From: Fibrobacter sp. UWT2
Lineage (GTDB): Bacteria; Fibrobacterota; Fibrobacteria; Fibrobacterales; Fibrobacteraceae
Direction: 5' to 3'
NCBI RefSeq assembly: GCF_900142545.1
Contig: NZ_FRBF01000004.1
Location: 1 to 64,000 of the forward strand
DNA: 64,000 nucleotides
The notes beneath the pieces were generated by a model. The model was not told where the DNA came from and did not search any database. It was given only the letters and a program-made list of their open reading frames with translations. Positions 18,691 to 33,007 of this stretch are shown here, piece after piece. How positions within the stretch are numbered: the first letter of the stretch is position 1; every line of letters starts with the position of its first letter. Both the position numbers and the translations under genes were made by a program.

Positions 18691-19713
18691 ATGCCAAAAA
18701 AGATTCTCGAAAATCTTTCGGAGAATCGGACCTTAATCTTTTTGATTATGTGTCTGTGCGTTCACATTTTTAATGTGTTCCTGTTTTGGACGTTTGGGCT
18801 TTTCCCGTTGGTGGTTCTGAATGCCATTAGTTCTGTGTTATACGTTGCTTTCTTGACAATTTTTAAGGATGAAAATCTCAGAATTTCCTTTGCCTACTTC
18901 GAAATCATTTTTTTCTCTGCCATGACGGAATTGATTTCTGGCGGCCATTTTGGTACCTTGACTTTTGTTATTGGCATGGAGGCGGTGATTTTCTTTATGC
19001 TGCCTTATTCCAACAGGAAAAAACACATATATCAGCTTATTGGTGCTGTGCTTGCGGTTGCAATTAGCTTGATTTCCGTTTTTAATTATTCCCTTTATCC
19101 AGAACTGATGGATTTGGTTCTGCATCACAGCTCTTTTGTGAAAGTCTTGAACTTGATCATTACGCTGTTCTCGCTGTTCTATTTGACCAACCTTTATTTG
19201 GTGGAACTGAGAACCACTCGCGAAAAGTTGGACTACAACAGTAATCATGACGTGTTGACCGGCCTCTATAACCGTCGATTCTTTGAAGGCATCATGAAAC
19301 GTAGCAAAGAGGAAAAAGAAACCTCTTACTCCGTGGCTATGTTGGATGTGGATGACTTCAAGAAAATTAACGATACATACGGCCATGAAACGGGTGACAG
19401 AGTCCTTGCGGCGGTAAGTAAATGTATTGAAGCTAGCCTGCCCGAAAATGCGGTTGCGGTTCGTTGGGGCGGTGAAGAATTTGTGTTGTACTTACCGCAA
19501 GTGGATAGTGCTCAGACTTTGGATGTTTTGAACGATTTCCGAGCCAAGCTTTCGAAGCAGGAGATTTATCACAAGGGAAATCGTGTTGTCATTACGGCGA
19601 CGATCGGCCTTTGCACGGGTGAAAGTATTGCTGACTACGAGGAATACATCCGTCAAGCAGACGAAAAGCTGTATTGGGGCAAGCAGCACGGCAAGAACCA
19701 GATCGTTAAATAG
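18691..19713 (+). CDS. Membrane diguanylate cyclase (GGDEF)
   Basis: A 340-residue protein. Six hydrophobic segments fill residues 15-175, and a short linker leads to a GGDEF domain (about 182-335). It begins with NHDVLTGLYNRRFF and has the metal-binding Asp in MLDVDDFKKINDTYGHETGD. The active-site loop is RWGGEEF (GGEEF at 260-264), an active-type variant that makes cyclic di-GMP from two GTP. The RxxD inhibitory site expected just before the loop is absent (LPEN is there instead). The input signal sensed by the membrane part is unknown. GAAGGGG lies seven to nine bases before ATG 18691. Confidence 0.93.
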   Translation: MPKKILENLSENRTLIFLIMCLCVHIFNVFLFWTFGLFPLVVLNAISSVLYVAFLTIFKDENLRISFAYFEIIFFSAMTELISGGHFGTLTFVIGMEAVIFFMLPYSNRKKHIYQLIGAVLAVAISLISVFNYSLYPELMDLVLHHSSFVKVLNLIITLFSLFYLTNLYLVELRTTREKLDYNSNHDVLTGLYNRRFFEGIMKRSKEEKETSYSVAMLDVDDFKKINDTYGHETGDRVLAAVSKCIEASLPENAVAVRWGGEEFVLYLPQVDSAQTLDVLNDFRAKLSKQEIYHKGNRVVITATIGLCTGESIADYEEYIRQADEKLYWGKQHGKNQIVK

Positions 19714-27026: not shown

Positions 27027-28199
27027 TTAGTAAGCGCCTTCGCCCTTGAACACGACCTTGAAGGTCTTGAGGATGAGCGAGACGTCGTCGCTCAGCTTGC
27101 CGTTGCGTTTGATGTAGTCGTTGTCCAAACGCATCTGGCCTTCGAAGCTGATGTTGCTGCGGCCGCTGACCTGCCAAATGCAGGTGAGACCTGGCGTCAC
27201 GGAAAGACGCATGCGGTGCCAGGGCTCGTATTCCGCCACTTCAGACGGAATCGGCGGACGCGGACCGACAATGGACATGTCGCCCTTGAGAATGTTGAAG
27301 AACTGCGGCAGTTCGTCGAGGCTGAACTTGCGGAGCACGTGACCGAACGGATAGATACGCGGGTCGTTCTTCATCTTGAAGGTCTTGCCGCCCGTTTCGT
27401 TCTGGGCCAGGAGTTCTTTTTTGCGCTCTTCGGCATCCACATACATGCTGCGGAACTTGTACATGGTGAATAGCTTGCCGTTCTTGCCTACGCGGGTCTG
27501 CTTGAAAATGATGGGACCCTTGGGGTCGCTGAGCTTGACGGCGGCGGCGCAGAACAGGAGCAGGGGAGAGCAGAGCACGATCGCAATGCTGGTACAGGTC
27601 ACGTCTACAAAACGCTTGACCATGTGGCGGTAGCGAATGGTGTGCGGGTGTTCCCAGATATGGTCGAGGTTCAGGCGGCAAAGCGAGAAAAATCGGCCGT
27701 TTGCGCTGTTGAAATCCTTAATCTTTTCTTCGAGTTCCAGGTTTTCTTTTTCCTGGAGGCCGGTATAGATGTAGGCTTCGAAGATAGGCTTCTTGGGGTT
27801 GATGCGGAGCGTCTGGATCAGGCCTGCATCGTTCAGCTTGTGCAGAATCTCTTTGCGAATCGATTCCAGCACCGAGAGGTCGGAATTCAGCAAGATAATG
27901 CCGAGACCGCTGCCGTCGGAAAGGTAGCCTAAAACATCAATGAAGCGTAAATGCGAAAACATCGTCAAGATGCTGATTCGCCAGGTGTTTTCGACGGTCT
28001 TGTTCGGGCTGCCCCAACCAAAGAAGTCGTACTGGTGCGAATACATCTTGATGTACAGGAATGGCTTGCGGGTGCGGTTCGCCCTCATGAATTCTTCGTT
28101 CAAACGCGTTCTAAAGAGCTTTGTCGGGTAGACAATGTTCTTTAGCTTTTGCTCGTCGAGAATTGAGCCGATTGCCGGATTGACCGATTCCTGTTCCAT
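27027..28199 (-). CDS. Priming glycosyltransferase (polyprenol-phosphate sugar transferase) with degenerate GGDEF-like N-domain
   Basis: A 390-residue protein. The C-terminal half (from about residue 190) is a bacterial sugar transferase that moves a sugar-phosphate from a UDP-sugar to undecaprenyl phosphate, starting polysaccharide synthesis. Its motifs are KRFVDVTCTSIAIVLCSPLLL (membrane anchor), IIFKQTRVGKNGKLFTMYKFRSM, LRKFSLDELPQFFNILKGDMSIVGPRPP and TPGLTCIWQVSGRS. The N-terminal half lacks the usual membrane helices; instead FRTRLNEEFMRANR...VLGYLSDGSGLGIILL looks like a decayed GGDEF domain. ATG 28199 is five bases after a TATATTTA box with no Shine-Dalgarno. Confidence 0.88.
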   Translation of the reverse strand: MEQESVNPAIGSILDEQKLKNIVYPTKLFRTRLNEEFMRANRTRKPFLYIKMYSHQYDFFGWGSPNKTVENTWRISILTMFSHLRFIDVLGYLSDGSGLGIILLNSDLSVLESIRKEILHKLNDAGLIQTLRINPKKPIFEAYIYTGLQEKENLELEEKIKDFNSANGRFFSLCRLNLDHIWEHPHTIRYRHMVKRFVDVTCTSIAIVLCSPLLLFCAAAVKLSDPKGPIIFKQTRVGKNGKLFTMYKFRSMYVDAEERKKELLAQNETGGKTFKMKNDPRIYPFGHVLRKFSLDELPQFFNILKGDMSIVGPRPPIPSEVAEYEPWHRMRLSVTPGLTCIWQVSGRSNISFEGQMRLDNDYIKRNGKLSDDVSLILKTFKVVFKGEGAY

Positions 28200-28288: not shown

Positions 28289-30163
28289 ATGAAATTCACG
28301 ATTTCAATTTTTACGGGAGTTATTTTTACAGCCTTGTCTGCAAATGCGGCGACTATTACTTCAAAAATACCAGCTTTGTCGGACAGTTGTTATCAGATTT
28401 CAGATGCCGCCGAACTTTACGGATTTGCAGACATTGTGAATGGTACAGGAGAGGGTGACCCTCAAGGGAACGTGTGTGGAAAACTGACTCAGGATATCGT
28501 GGTGAATGAATCTGTGCTAAATTCCGAAGGCGAATTGAATTCGCAAAAGGATTTTGTCCCGTGGGTTCCGATGAAAGATTTTTCGGGAAAGTTTGATGGG
28601 AACAACCATGTTATATATGGATTGTATTTTAATGGCAACGGTGACAAAAGTGTGGGCTTATTTGAAAATGCGTCAGGCTTTCAAATATTAAACCTCGGTC
28701 TTGAAGACTTTTATTTCGCGGGAAAAGAAAATGTGGGCGCCTTTGTTGGCTTTGTAAACGATTATTCGAAAAACCAAATGGAAATAACGAATTCCTATGC
28801 CGCAGGCTTGGTTGAGGGTGAATCTGGCGTAGGAGGCTTTATTGGAAGCGCAACATGGCATAAGGGATCGCTGTATATATCGAACAGTTACAACCTGTCT
28901 ATGGTGAAAGGTTTGTACGAAGTGGGGGGATTCATTGGGAGTAAATATGAAGACGATGTCTATATAATAAAATCCTATAATTCAGGGGTGGTTTCCGGTA
29001 AGGAGGCTGTTGGTGGATTTGTTGGTTGGGCAAGTAAGGGCGTTCTCGGGGTTTACCAAAGCTATAATGCCGGAAAAGTTGTCGGACAGATGTATGTTGG
29101 CGGCTTATTAGGCAAAGCGACTTCTTTCGAATACGCTCTTTTCAAAAATGTCTACAACAAGGGTGCCGTAGAAGGTGGCTCGAGTGTTGGTGGGCTTGTT
29201 GGTTATGGAGAAGGCGCAGACCTTATTGGTGGTGGCGTTACTATTGCTAATGCGTATAATGCTGTGCATGTTTCCTACGATGCAGATTCTTCACTAAAAG
29301 CAGGAACTATTCTCGGGTATGGATATGGTGACGGCGATATCAGATTTGAAAATTGTTTTTTTGTGGAGCAAGAGGATATTCTTGTTGCTAATGTGTCGGA
29401 TACAACTAACAAGGTAATAGAAGATGTTCTAGGTGTTACCGAAGAACGTTTAATGGGTGGAGTTATTGCTGGTTATTTACGAGGCTGGATTGAAACTTAC
29501 CGTAACGGTTCTTATGTGGAAAATGGCGCCGATGGTCTCGTATGGGCCGAAGACCCTGCTGGCCAGGTGCTCCCGCATTTTGATTGGAGTAACACGAAAC
29601 ACTATGTATTTTTCGTTTTAGATGAAGGCGGCAAAATCGAAAAAGGTCATGAGCTGAAGTATTATGAAGAAGGTGTGGCGACAGCGCTTCCCGATGCACA
29701 ATTCGTGACTCGCGAAGGGTTCTATTTTGCGGGTTGGTATGATAACAGGCAATTTTTGGGGAATGCTGTCACTTCGGTGAGCCCCAAAGCGACTGGTACA
29801 CAGATCTTTTATGCCAAGTGGACTACACCCCCAGTTTCGAGCTCTAGCGAAGAATCCTCTTCGAGCGTATCTAGCAGTTCTTCTGATGCGTCAAGCTCCT
29901 CTGAGACGCCGAGCTCGAGTAGCGAACAGACTACTTCCTTTGAGCGAATGCCGTTGCCGCAGTTTAGCGTGAGCGTTGTAAATCGCACCTTGCAGGTGGC
30001 AGGAGCCCGTGCGGGCGACAGGTATGTATTGTTCGATATGCAGGGCAATGTGGTGCTCCGTGGAACCGCAAATAGCGCGAATTTCAGCATCGCGGTGCCT
30101 GTTTCGGGGAATTATGTGCTTCGAATCGGGAATGGAAGCCGCAAGGTGTCTGTGAGATTCTAG
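28289..30163 (+). CDS. Secreted GLUG-repeat surface protein with C-terminal sorting-like domain
   Basis: A 624-residue protein with a signal peptide (cut after SANA). From about residue 130 to 330 there are repeats of the GLUG type, VGGFIG/VGGLVG followed by a SYN/AYN stretch. An InlB-type repeat follows (FYFAGWYDNRQ...FYAKW, about 475-512), then a Ser-rich linker, then a C-terminal domain with SIAVPVSGNYVLRIGN. That tail matches the pectate lyase tail. GLUG and InlB repeats suggest adhesion or surface structure; no catalytic domain is seen. Codon use is more AT-rich than in its neighbours. ATG 28289 follows AGAGGAG at about six bases. Confidence 0.85.
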   Translation: MKFTISIFTGVIFTALSANAATITSKIPALSDSCYQISDAAELYGFADIVNGTGEGDPQGNVCGKLTQDIVVNESVLNSEGELNSQKDFVPWVPMKDFSGKFDGNNHVIYGLYFNGNGDKSVGLFENASGFQILNLGLEDFYFAGKENVGAFVGFVNDYSKNQMEITNSYAAGLVEGESGVGGFIGSATWHKGSLYISNSYNLSMVKGLYEVGGFIGSKYEDDVYIIKSYNSGVVSGKEAVGGFVGWASKGVLGVYQSYNAGKVVGQMYVGGLLGKATSFEYALFKNVYNKGAVEGGSSVGGLVGYGEGADLIGGGVTIANAYNAVHVSYDADSSLKAGTILGYGYGDGDIRFENCFFVEQEDILVANVSDTTNKVIEDVLGVTEERLMGGVIAGYLRGWIETYRNGSYVENGADGLVWAEDPAGQVLPHFDWSNTKHYVFFVLDEGGKIEKGHELKYYEEGVATALPDAQFVTREGFYFAGWYDNRQFLGNAVTSVSPKATGTQIFYAKWTTPPVSSSSEESSSSVSSSSSDASSSSETPSSSSEQTTSFERMPLPQFSVSVVNRTLQVAGARAGDRYVLFDMQGNVVLRGTANSANFSIAVPVSGNYVLRIGNGSRKVSVRF

Positions 30164-30172
30164 CCAAAATTC

Positions 30173-30180
30173 TATATTTG
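30173..30180 (+). promoter_or_regulatory. TATATTTG promoter box for hom
   Basis: Lies 30 bases before ATG 30211, with GGAG (30200-30203) in between. Confidence 0.5.
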
Positions 30181-30210
30181 CCCCGTAAAAATTTAAAATG
30201 GAGACGCCTT

Positions 30211-31500
30211 ATGTTGCGTATTGGTCTTATTGGTACTGGAACCGTCGGTGGCGGTGTTATCCAGATTCTGGAACAGAAGATTGCCGAATACAAGGAAAAA
30301 CTCGGTGTTGAATTGGAATTGGCTTGCATTTGCGCCAAGTCCGAAGAAGAAGTTGCCCCGTACAAGGCAAAGGGCTACAAGGTTTCGACCAACGCCGACG
30401 AAATGATTGCCGGTAACGATATCGATGTGCTCGTGGAGCTCGCCGGTGGCTACAACATGCCGCGCAAGTGGATCCTCGCTGCCCTCGAAAGCGGCAAGCA
30501 CGTGGTGACTGCCAACAAGGCTCTCCTCGCCAAGTACGGCCACGAAATTTTCCCGCTTGCAGCCAAGAACGGTCTGCATGTGCTGTTCGAAGCAGCCGTG
30601 GGCGGTGGCATTCCTATCATCCGTAGCCTGCAGGAAGGCTTGCTCGGCTCTACGGTGGAACACCTGAGCTGCATCATTAACGGTACTTGTAACTACATCC
30701 TCAGCCGCATGGCCGACGAAGGCCTGGACTTCGACGTGGTTCTGAAGGATGCCCAGAAGCTCGGCTTTGCCGAAGCTGACCCGACCTTCGATATCGAAGG
30801 TATCGACTCCGCTCATAAGACTGCCTTGCTCGCTAGCCTCTGCAGCGGCCACCGCGTGGACTTCGAAAAGATTCACGTGACGGGTATTTCCAAGATTACC
30901 GCCCAGGATATCGCATTCGCCAAGGAACTTGGCTGCTGCGTGAAGCTCCTCGGCATCTATCACCGCGACGGTGACCGCGTGGACGCCCGTGTCCATCCGT
31001 GCTTCGTTTCTAACGAAAACCTGCTCTCTAACGTGAACGGCGTAATCAACGCTGTGTACCTCAAGTGCGACAACCTGGGCGAAACCGTTCAGACTGGCGC
31101 CGGTGCAGGCCGTTTGCCGACTGCTTCTGCTGTCGTAGCCGACCTCGTTTCCTTGGCCCGCTCTGTGGATCAGGGTAAGCGTAAGGCACTCCCGATGGGC
31201 TGGTTCAACGTCGACAACTCTGCAACGCTCGTTCCTATTTCGGAAACTTCGGCCCGCTACTACCTGCGCTTCACCTCTCGTGACGCTTGCGGTGTGCTCG
31301 CCAAGATTACCAGCATCCTCGCCGAAAACAACATCTCTATCGAAACCATTATCCAGAAGAACGTGAACGACCCGGGTAAGGTTTCTATCGTGGTGATTAC
31401 CGAAAAGACTCAGGATTGCAAGACCTCTAAGGCTGTGGACGCTATCGACGCCCTGCCCGAAATTGTCGAAAAGAGCCAGGTGATCCGTTTCCTCGCCTAA
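30211..31500 (+). CDS. hom: Homoserine dehydrogenase
   Basis: A 429-residue cytosolic enzyme that reduces aspartate semialdehyde to homoserine for threonine and methionine synthesis. RIGLIGTGTVGGGV binds NAD(P), and the catalytic region has NGTCNYILSRM, GFAEADPTFDIEGIDSAHK and GAGAGRLPTASAVVADL. A C-terminal ACT domain (about 350-425) is the usual site for threonine feedback. There is no aspartate kinase fusion. ATG 30211, seven bases after GGAG, is preferred over an upstream frame start at 30178. Confidence 0.96.
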   Translation: MLRIGLIGTGTVGGGVIQILEQKIAEYKEKLGVELELACICAKSEEEVAPYKAKGYKVSTNADEMIAGNDIDVLVELAGGYNMPRKWILAALESGKHVVTANKALLAKYGHEIFPLAAKNGLHVLFEAAVGGGIPIIRSLQEGLLGSTVEHLSCIINGTCNYILSRMADEGLDFDVVLKDAQKLGFAEADPTFDIEGIDSAHKTALLASLCSGHRVDFEKIHVTGISKITAQDIAFAKELGCCVKLLGIYHRDGDRVDARVHPCFVSNENLLSNVNGVINAVYLKCDNLGETVQTGAGAGRLPTASAVVADLVSLARSVDQGKRKALPMGWFNVDNSATLVPISETSARYYLRFTSRDACGVLAKITSILAENNISIETIIQKNVNDPGKVSIVVITEKTQDCKTSKAVDAIDALPEIVEKSQVIRFLA

Positions 31501-31555: not shown

Positions 31556-33007
31556 ATGATTCGCGCCGCTACATTGGAACGCATTCTCGTTATCCTTTCG
31601 GATTTCGTGGCGTTATCGATTTGTTTTGTTCTCGCCTTCTGGGTGCAGTTCCACAGTGGCTGGATTGCCGACAAATATGACCCGAGTAAAGTGTTTACGG
31701 ATTATGCCCACATGGGACTTGTCCTGAATGTGGGCTGGATTCTGCTCTTTATTTGTGCAGGCCTTTACCGCTCCTGGTTGCTCATGTCGAGAACGCACCA
31801 GACCTTGCGCGTGTTGCGTGCTGTGCTTATCGGCATCGTGATTATTATCGCTATGCTGTTTGGTGCGGAATTTATCGGCAAGATCATGGTGAACGAACCG
31901 CTCAACCAGGGTTACCTGTACGGTTCCCGTTTCCCGTGGATTTTTATTTATGGCGGCTTTGCGCTGTTCCTGGTGATTCTCTTTAGAATGCTTATTTACC
32001 GCTGCCTGCGCAGGCTCTTGAGCCTTGGCTTTGGCGCGAATAACATTCTGGTGCTGGGTGCAACTGAAGCGGGCAAGAAAATTGCCGAAGCGCTTGCGAA
32101 GACTCCTGAACGCGGTCAGCGCGTGGTGGGCTTTGTCGATGAACGTTACCAGGTCATGGAACATGAATTTGCGAATGTGCCGGTGCTTGGTAAGTATGCA
32201 GACTTGGCTTCGCTCATTAAAAAGTACAAGGTGACGGGTATCATTATTGCGCACGAAAGTTCTTCGCCGCAAGAAATCATGCGCGTGCTTGTGTGGGTGT
32301 GTGACCAACCGGTTCACATTTATCTGGTTCCCGAACTTTACAGCGTGATTCATGGTCAGTTCAAGGCTAACCTGGTTTATGGCTTTGAACTTCAGGAACT
32401 GTTTGCCTTTACCATGCCGCTTTGGCAGCTGCGTGTGAAGCGCGCGATTGACATTCTGTTTGGCGCCTTCCTCGGCATGATTTCTTTCCCGGTTTGCGTG
32501 CTCGCCGCTATTGCGATTAAGCTTGAAGACCATGGCCCGGTGTTCTATTCCCAGGAACGCATTGGCTTGTACGGCAAGCCGTTTACGGTTTACAAGTTCC
32601 GTACCATGCGTACCGATGCCGAAAAGTTCGGTGCCCAGTGGGCTACTAAAGACGACCCCCGCATTACCAAGGTGGGCAAGTTCTTGCGCAAGACCCGTAT
32701 CGATGAACTTCCGCAAATTTTGTGTGTGCTTAAAGGTGACATGAGCATGGTGGGACCGCGTCCGGAACGTGCCGTGTTCATCAGCAAGCTTCGCGAAGAA
32801 ATTCCGTTCTATATTAGCCGCCTGAAAATGAAGCCGGGTCTGACCGGTTGGGCTCAGGTGTGCCACCATTACGATACCAGCACCGAAGACGTGAAAATCA
32901 AGCTGCAGTACGATATGTATTACTTTGAAAACATGAGTTTGCTTCTTGACTTCCAGATCTTGGTGCGCACTGTTTATGTTGTTCTAACCGGTAAGGGAGC
33001 GCAGTAA
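31556..33007 (+). CDS. Undecaprenyl-phosphate sugar phosphotransferase (WbaP/WcaJ type)
   Basis: A 483-residue inner-membrane priming transferase. Four transmembrane helices (about 10-125) precede a Rossmann-like domain (NILVLGATEAGKKIAEAL), a fifth hydrophobic segment (near 297-320) and the catalytic sugar transferase domain with VFYSQERIGLYGKPFTVYKFRTM, LRKTRIDELPQILCVLKGDMSMVGPRPE and MKPGLTGWAQV. It loads the first sugar-phosphate onto undecaprenyl phosphate for capsule or O-antigen. This is the second such enzyme in the window, in the classical architecture, unlike that at 27027. It overlaps nadC by one base (TAATG). Confidence 0.92.
   Translation: MIRAATLERILVILSDFVALSICFVLAFWVQFHSGWIADKYDPSKVFTDYAHMGLVLNVGWILLFICAGLYRSWLLMSRTHQTLRVLRAVLIGIVIIIAMLFGAEFIGKIMVNEPLNQGYLYGSRFPWIFIYGGFALFLVILFRMLIYRCLRRLLSLGFGANNILVLGATEAGKKIAEALAKTPERGQRVVGFVDERYQVMEHEFANVPVLGKYADLASLIKKYKVTGIIIAHESSSPQEIMRVLVWVCDQPVHIYLVPELYSVIHGQFKANLVYGFELQELFAFTMPLWQLRVKRAIDILFGAFLGMISFPVCVLAAIAIKLEDHGPVFYSQERIGLYGKPFTVYKFRTMRTDAEKFGAQWATKDDPRITKVGKFLRKTRIDELPQILCVLKGDMSMVGPRPERAVFISKLREEIPFYISRLKMKPGLTGWAQVCHHYDTSTEDVKIKLQYDMYYFENMSLLLDFQILVRTVYVVLTGKGAQ

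Follow-up and report, generated by a model that had tools for sequence, protein, structure and literature searches.

Results

A fusion gene and its conserved neighbours

The DNA analysed here, referred to as the window, is a stretch of 64,000 nucleotides from Fibrobacter sp. UWT2 (NCBI RefSeq assembly GCF_900142545.1, contig NZ_FRBF01000004.1, positions 1 to 64,000 of the forward strand). An earlier note, made from the letters of the window, had described the gene of a priming glycosyltransferase, a phosphoglycosyl transferase (PGT), with an unusual front; its coordinates proved right, and the gene lies on the minus strand and encodes 390 residues. The features that define the locus are as follows.

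27027..28199, minus strand: gene of the GGDEF-like/PGT fusion, 390-residue product (open reading frame with its ATG at 28199 and its stop ending at 27027)
27672..28139, minus strand: predicted degenerate GGDEF-fold domain, residues 21-176 (AlphaFold2, fold search, alignment to canonical GGDEF domains)
27045..27617, minus strand: PGT catalytic domain (Bac_transf), residues 195-385 (Pfam)
27312..27317, minus strand: Asp295-Glu296 of SLDELPQ, an intact dyad aligned with the SLDELPQ of WbaP structures
30178..31500, plus strand: homoserine dehydrogenase, a divergent neighbour kept in the order (neighbourhood comparison)
31556..33007, plus strand: ordinary large PGT with a CoA_binding_3 front (3.2e-25; Pfam, NCBIfam), a neighbour kept in the order

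Residues 195-385 matched Bac_transf with an E-value of 1.5e-63, and the PF02397 score of 214 bits against a cut-off of 27 identifies the protein as a monotopic PGT, one of three above-cut-off Bac_transf matches in the genome. The Asp295-Glu296 dyad, which we take to be catalytic, is preserved, and the protein, judged by its family, would transfer sugar-1-phosphate to undecaprenyl phosphate. It has neither the build of the large monotopic PGTs (WbaP/WcaJ), with their transmembrane bundle and Rossmann-like cytoplasmic domain, nor that of the small ones, which consist of the catalytic domain alone, since it carries an extra domain of 190 residues. The CoA_binding_3 front was absent in the Pfam search, and no 19-residue window of the N-terminal segment exceeded a mean Kyte-Doolittle value of 1.47, which bears out the proposal that about 190 soluble residues replace the membrane and Rossmann front of WcaJ/WbaP enzymes; as the second PGT of the window (31556-33007) does have a CoA_binding_3 front, the contrast drawn in the earlier note is real. 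Consistently, the NCBIfam models TIGR03025, EpsZ, WbaP and WcaJ begin to align only at residues 145, 192, 189 and 155, respectively; TIGR03025 scored 279.6 bits against a cut-off of 295.55 and covered residues 145-390 only, while the EpsZ model NF041877, the second-best NCBIfam match (2.5e-80), was confined to the PGT part and fell below its cut-off. WbaP-type large PGTs (PDB 8t53, 30us) share with the fusion a C-terminal catalytic domain (profile over 167-390 with 8t53), the SLDELPQ motif and a C-terminal GAY, whereas the fusion lacks CoA_binding_3 and any stretch of transmembrane strength and has a pseudo-GGDEF front instead.

Of 71 loci of the order, 61 have homoserine dehydrogenase near the fusion, always on the opposite strand, and 59 have a large PGT; some of these 71 loci are the same contig seen twice, and some of the ten loci without homoserine dehydrogenase are cut by a contig end. 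Five loci (L050, L121, L123, L124 and L129) have room on the contig but no homoserine dehydrogenase gene. The gene at 28289-30163 (plus strand) encodes a 624-residue protein with a List_Bact_rpt repeat and a T9SS-type sorting tail barely below the cut-off, and genes of this type lie near the fusion in other loci too, at least in L042 and L062. Among the 23 loci from outside the order, a GFO/IDH/MocA gene was present in 14, a DegT aminotransferase gene in 9 and neither in nine; in L193 and L201 these assignments follow Pfam. A receiver-GGDEF gene upstream of the fusion was found in one of the 23 (L193), and in another (L197) a stand-alone copy of the N-terminal domain lies directly 5' of the fusion. 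Locus L193 (1909-2898 and 4188-5423) belongs to another family of the phylum, and its receiver-GGDEF gene lies about 1.3 kb upstream of the fused PGT and a sugar cluster.

The stand-alone paralogue of the N-terminal domain has a setting of its own, flanked on one side by a divergent DUF4954 gene and on the other by a GT4 gene in all 21 loci scanned, that of the window genome included. In the window genome (G000:C8, locus L225 6780-8437), the gene of this GGDEF-like protein with RxxD overlaps the GT4 glycosyltransferase gene, the same arrangement being seen in the 20 other loci; in neither Pfam nor NCBIfam did the protein match a family at E<=1.

The N-terminal domain is predicted to have a GGDEF fold

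The N-terminal 186 residues gave no above-cut-off Pfam family, and PF00990 was matched neither by the fusion protein at E<=5 nor by the 14 members of the N-domain alignment A2 at E<=10. Searched alone against Pfam and PDB sequences, the domain returned sub-threshold matches only, including the GGDEF structure 5euh (1.4), whose register agrees with that of the later alignment. Two other candidates arose at this level: BsuBI_PstI_RE_N (0.21 for the domain; 11 of 14 A2 members matched, the best at 0.0066), which was rejected on the fold result, and an Lrp-type protein, likewise sub-threshold (0.069).

The AlphaFold2 model of the domain, built with 48 sequences (mean pLDDT 78.8, pTM 0.78), comprises a short N-terminal helix followed by helix-strand-helix-strand-strand-helix-strand-helix-strand. 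With this model, Foldseek matched 30 PDB chains at E<=0.001; the 50 matches listed all contain a GGDEF domain, with TM-scores, by query length, of only 0.30-0.44. In VIA-align 2, the best match was 6khu (Z 7.8, rmsd 4.3, 122 aligned residues), a Z below 8 lying in the range that can mean merely a common arrangement; the 50 matches listed again all contain GGDEF, PelD (4dn0; Z 6.2, rmsd 3.9, 120 aligned) among them. The full-length model also found 6khu first (Z 8.6, rmsd 3.8, 121 aligned); its PGT half, with pLDDT below 50 from residue 243 onward, was not used. A viral fold library returned nothing at E<=0.001, its best match (1.1e-3) being a GGDEF protein.

Given the modest Z-scores and low TM-scores, sequence evidence for homology was sought, and since hhalign of the domain against the single diguanylate cyclase of the window detected nothing (E 0.92), wide profiles were built. 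With near-copies counted, they comprised 86 fusions of the order and 34 from elsewhere in the phylum, 23 stand-alone sequences and 33 GGDEF domains. The profile of the outside-order fusions matched GGDEF with an E-value of 1e-8 and a probability of 95.7 (reversed control 0.075), and it was itself matched by the order fusions at 1.4e-9. The stand-alone profile matched the order fusions at 1.7e-20 and GGDEF at 7.4e-5 (reversed 0.05). Similarity of the fusion domain to GGDEF at the profile level thus runs through its outside-order relatives; the direct comparison of the order fusions with GGDEF was weak, with an E-value of 8.6e-4 and a probability of 23.5 (reversed control 0.17). Of two outside-order N-domains searched in NCBIfam, that of L140 matched DgcR at 3.7e-4, far under the cut-off, and that of L193 gave no match. 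The predicted structure, the fold searches and the profiles together support a GGDEF fold for the domain and with it the GGDEF-like, decayed front proposed earlier; the earlier note had named a predicted fold unrelated to GGDEF as the outcome that would speak against its proposal, and the prediction returned a GGDEF-like one.

The N-domain profile also reached L141, L143 and L144 (E 1.3e-4 to 9.3e-4), proteins of about 285 residues that keep RxxD and carry PGDRF or SGDRF where GG[DE]EF would stand. The two that were scanned, L141 and L143, are PF00990 proteins at about 1e-27; this is possibly another receptor type.

The cyclase site is lost

The residues compared with those of canonical GGDEF domains and discussed below are the following.

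27906..27920, minus strand: SDGSG (94-98) at the place of GG[DE]EF (alignment to canonical GGDEF domains)
27936..27947, minus strand: RxxD motif R85-F-I-D88 at the place of the GGDEF I-site (alignment; directly before strand 89-92)
27849..27851, minus strand: E117 at the place of the third I-site residue (alignment; Arg/Lys in relatives)

In the alignment with 17 canonical domains of the same genome, the place of GG[DE]EF, a degenerate form of which the earlier note had read in this protein, is taken by SDGSG. As the canonical set was chosen for GG[DE]EF, the invariance of that motif within it is by construction; the beta1 Asp and the Lys and Asn-Asp of FKxxND were present in 17 of 17. At the places of the metal Asp, the Lys and the Asn-Asp, the fusion protein has Y53, D58 and G61-W62, so that none of the hallmarks of an active diguanylate cyclase is left, and the domain is, by its aligned residues, dead as a cyclase. 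The most decayed form found is that of genus g16 (L123, L124, L135), in which neither residue of RxxD is left and the hairpin is incomplete.

The genome itself is rich in c-di-GMP enzymes, with 30 GGDEF, 10 EAL and 1 PilZ matches. With so many GGDEF and EAL matches against one PilZ, c-di-GMP is probably present, and one would expect it to have receptors outside the PilZ family. The protein at 18691-19713, noted earlier as an active-type diguanylate cyclase, is indeed a GGDEF protein (PF00990, 1.1e-39) with GGEEF; in a genome with 30 GGDEF matches, it gives no special link to the fusion.

The I-site motif is complete in outside-order relatives and incomplete in the window protein

Residues of the c-di-GMP-binding I-site were compared after merging identical sequences. 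Both the RxxD motif and a Lys or Arg in third place occur in 33 of 33 aligned fusions from outside the order; among the matches listed, 60 relatives of G055, 34 fusions cover the N-terminal part, and all but one of these were used. The 34th (L207), which was filtered out, and L233, which was added later, have RxxD by eye. Fibrobacter fusions retain RxxD in 64 of 67 distinct sequences, the other three having Lys for Arg, but their third residue is acidic throughout, either Glu or Asp in all 67. RxxD is absent from all 13 fusions of other Fibrobacteraceae genera (Lys replaces Arg in 6) and from both fusions of the second family of the order. Such loss, together with the acidic third residue, indicates a ligand site without lasting selection in the order. 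Stand-alone sequences carry RxxD in 23 of 23 cases within the order, with Arg (21/23) or Asn (2/23) as third residue, and in 2 of 2 outside it, one of which (L138) represents the front part of a fusion gene that is split. For comparison, RxxD was present in 6 of 16 canonical GG[DE]EF domains of the window genome by pattern (30 GGDEF places, of which 21 gave the pattern, 16 of these with GG[DE]EF) and in 7 of 17 by alignment, and the third residue was Lys or Arg in 9 of 17.

Compared with a PelD-type receptor, the window protein thus has RxxD (R85-F-I-D88) but not the third basic residue, E117 standing at what is probably the position of PelD R402; two basic residues, R115-K116, adjoin it. According to PMC8461298, PelD absolutely requires R402. 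From the complete motif in the relatives and the acidic third residue here, binding of c-di-GMP is plausible for the relatives, where motif conservation supports it both for the outside-order fusions and for the stand-alone paralogues, whereas direct binding by the window fusion protein appears doubtful. Of the c-di-GMP-binding or dimerising role suggested in the earlier note, a dimerising or regulatory role therefore stands as the best guess, and c-di-GMP binding is doubtful for this protein, whose I-site is incomplete at E117.

Distribution of the fusion

In a first search of 60 genomes, the fusion was matched over residues 1-390 in 37 of 37 genomes of the same genus (its own included) at 75-100% identity, and hence is not a chance product; two genomes from the second family of the order also matched, one at 47% and one at 36%, the latter copy being cut by the contig end. 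Fusions also occur elsewhere in the order and in the phylum. The N-domain profile A2 found a match in 119 of 167 genomes of the phylum at E<=0.001, some through a stand-alone or PF00990 protein only. Within Fibrobacter, 79 of 80 genomes matched at better than 1e-90, in open frames at least 391 residues long, a count that refers to the N-domain; at least two A2 matches were present in 70 of the 80, the weaker ones, among the matches listed, in frames of 148-185 residues. Two short peptide patterns searched against genome contigs hit 58 loci, all of them titled Fibrobacter, Fibrobacterales or Fibrobacteraceae. One outside-order N-domain gave no match to plasmids (tblastn), nor did the viral contigs scanned. 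Similar fusions may be present in Geobacter-like bacteria. Among the papers listed on PGTs, degenerate GGDEF domains and c-di-GMP, titles and abstract openings contained no report of a GGDEF-PGT fusion, and a word search of PMC12550135 returned no mention of GGDEF fusions. In genome G084 the fusion is split into frames of 142 (N-domain) and 227 (PGT) residues (L210 4019-5114, also L138), and a whole copy is present as well (L179).

Origin of the fusion

Phylogenetic trees of the two parts, both with long branches, gave similar divisions. In the N-domain tree, a 100/99 branch separates the outside fusions from the fusions and stand-alone paralogues of the order; in the PGT tree, the order fusions cluster in a single clade (100/95), which a 99/94 branch divides from the fusions outside the order. 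When the fusions were forced into a joint clade, the AU test gave p 0.113 for the PGT part (L207, L230 and L231 having been dropped beforehand, and the group including the two short PGTs L138 and L239) and p 0.0552 for the N-domain (49 chosen rows), so that a single origin was not rejected. The tree splits make two independent fusions of GGDEF-like and PGT parts the likelier, not an established, history. That the parts were joined once, in the ancestor of the phylum, is allowed by both AU tests, but we consider it the less probable account, given the grouping of the order's N-domains with its own stand-alone paralogues and the well-supported separation of the order's PGT domains from the outside fusions.

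Discussion

The fold of the N-terminal domain, the decay of its catalytic residues, the conservation of its motifs and the gene neighbourhoods are all supported by the comparisons made here. As their best explanation, which we regard as reasonably probable, a dead GGDEF-fold domain would serve as a regulatory or dimerising platform of the PGT, ancestrally as a c-di-GMP receptor, with direct binding doubtful in the window protein. In this arrangement, a GGDEF-fold domain with a dead catalytic site appears to have taken the place of the membrane bundle and Rossmann front of the PGT. GGDEF domains form pairs, in many cases bridged by a c-di-GMP dimer at the I-site, and since large PGTs are also active as dimers, the GGDEF-like domain is most likely a regulatory and dimerising platform for the PGT. 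A complete I-site in the sister clades suggests that the enzyme there is probably switched directly by c-di-GMP. In Fibrobacter, where RxxD is kept but the third residue is acidic, the fused domain has probably turned structural or partner-binding and would itself bind c-di-GMP weakly or not at all. The stand-alone paralogue, with RxxD, mostly a third Arg and a gene encoded with GT4, would be a candidate c-di-GMP sensor in the same sugar pathway. Dimerisation, the ligand, the direction of control and the pairing with the paralogue are what we infer from these patterns.

Two other readings of the domain were weighed. It might be a soluble spacer or dimer scaffold that stands in for the cytoplasmic domain of large PGTs and takes no signal input; the domain is retained in the order while its ligand residues drift, and large PGTs are described as functional dimers (PMC12802240), but we hold this to be rather unlikely, as RxxD and a basic third residue persist in every aligned outside fusion (33/33) and the stand-alone paralogue keeps RxxD in the order. 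Least probable, and in our view quite doubtful, is that the window fusion is itself a c-di-GMP receptor, R85xxD88 bridging two GGDEF-like domains and turning the transferase on as in PelD, for although RxxD directly precedes strand 89-92 in most of the genus, basic residues adjoin E117 and the site is complete in outside-order fusions, the third residue is acidic throughout the genus, at the presumed place of the Arg that PelD reportedly requires, and RxxD is missing from the other genera of the family.

Returning to the pseudo-GGDEF domain as platform, a regulatory or dimerising role in the fusion is likely; control by c-di-GMP is plausible in the sister lineages and uncertain in the window protein. 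Surface-sugar production may thus be switched at its first step, by a second messenger or by a partner protein. A much wider picture, which as a whole we consider unlikely, would have c-di-GMP gate the first lipid-linked glycan step across much of Fibrobacterota: a dead GGDEF domain would have been joined to two PGT lineages independently, with the I-site bridging the dimer, and in Fibrobacter sensing would have moved to the stand-alone I-site paralogue coupled to GT4, which would pair with the fused pseudo-GGDEF domain to switch the PGT. A GGDEF-derived domain within the PGT itself would make the fusion a one-protein system for testing the control of undecaprenyl-phosphate commitment, and an evolutionary contrast, the I-site motif being complete outside the order, broken within it and kept by the stand-alone paralogue.

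Known systems offer partial parallels. PelD likewise has a dead GGDEF fold with RxxD (PMC8461298) and is tied to sugar polymer enzymes, and its recruitment of the GT4 enzyme PelF recalls the pairing of the stand-alone paralogue with a GT4 gene; PelD differs in having its own transmembrane helices and a GAF domain, no transferase fusion being described for it, and its third I-site Arg is lost in the window fusion. PopA and other I-site GGDEF effectors also combine a dead active site with a retained RxxD, but PopA works in the cell cycle and not in glycan synthesis (PMC12564702). The EpsZ model NF041877 aligns with the PGT part of the fusion; whereas EpsZ of Myxococcus xanthus is a large PGT under a separate receiver protein (EpsW), the window fusion carries its GGDEF-fold domain in the same chain. 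According to PMC12802240, EpsZ-EpsW is a case of post-translational PGT activation by a partner, with dimerisation inferred from models, and receiver domains occur in small PGTs; synthase-dependent polysaccharides are under direct c-di-GMP control, whereas the way in which Wzx/Wzy-type pathways are controlled after translation is only partly understood. In genome G080, five or more PGTs are of the fused kind (contigs C137, C160, C190, C263 and C316), which suggests several separately controlled glycan pathways.
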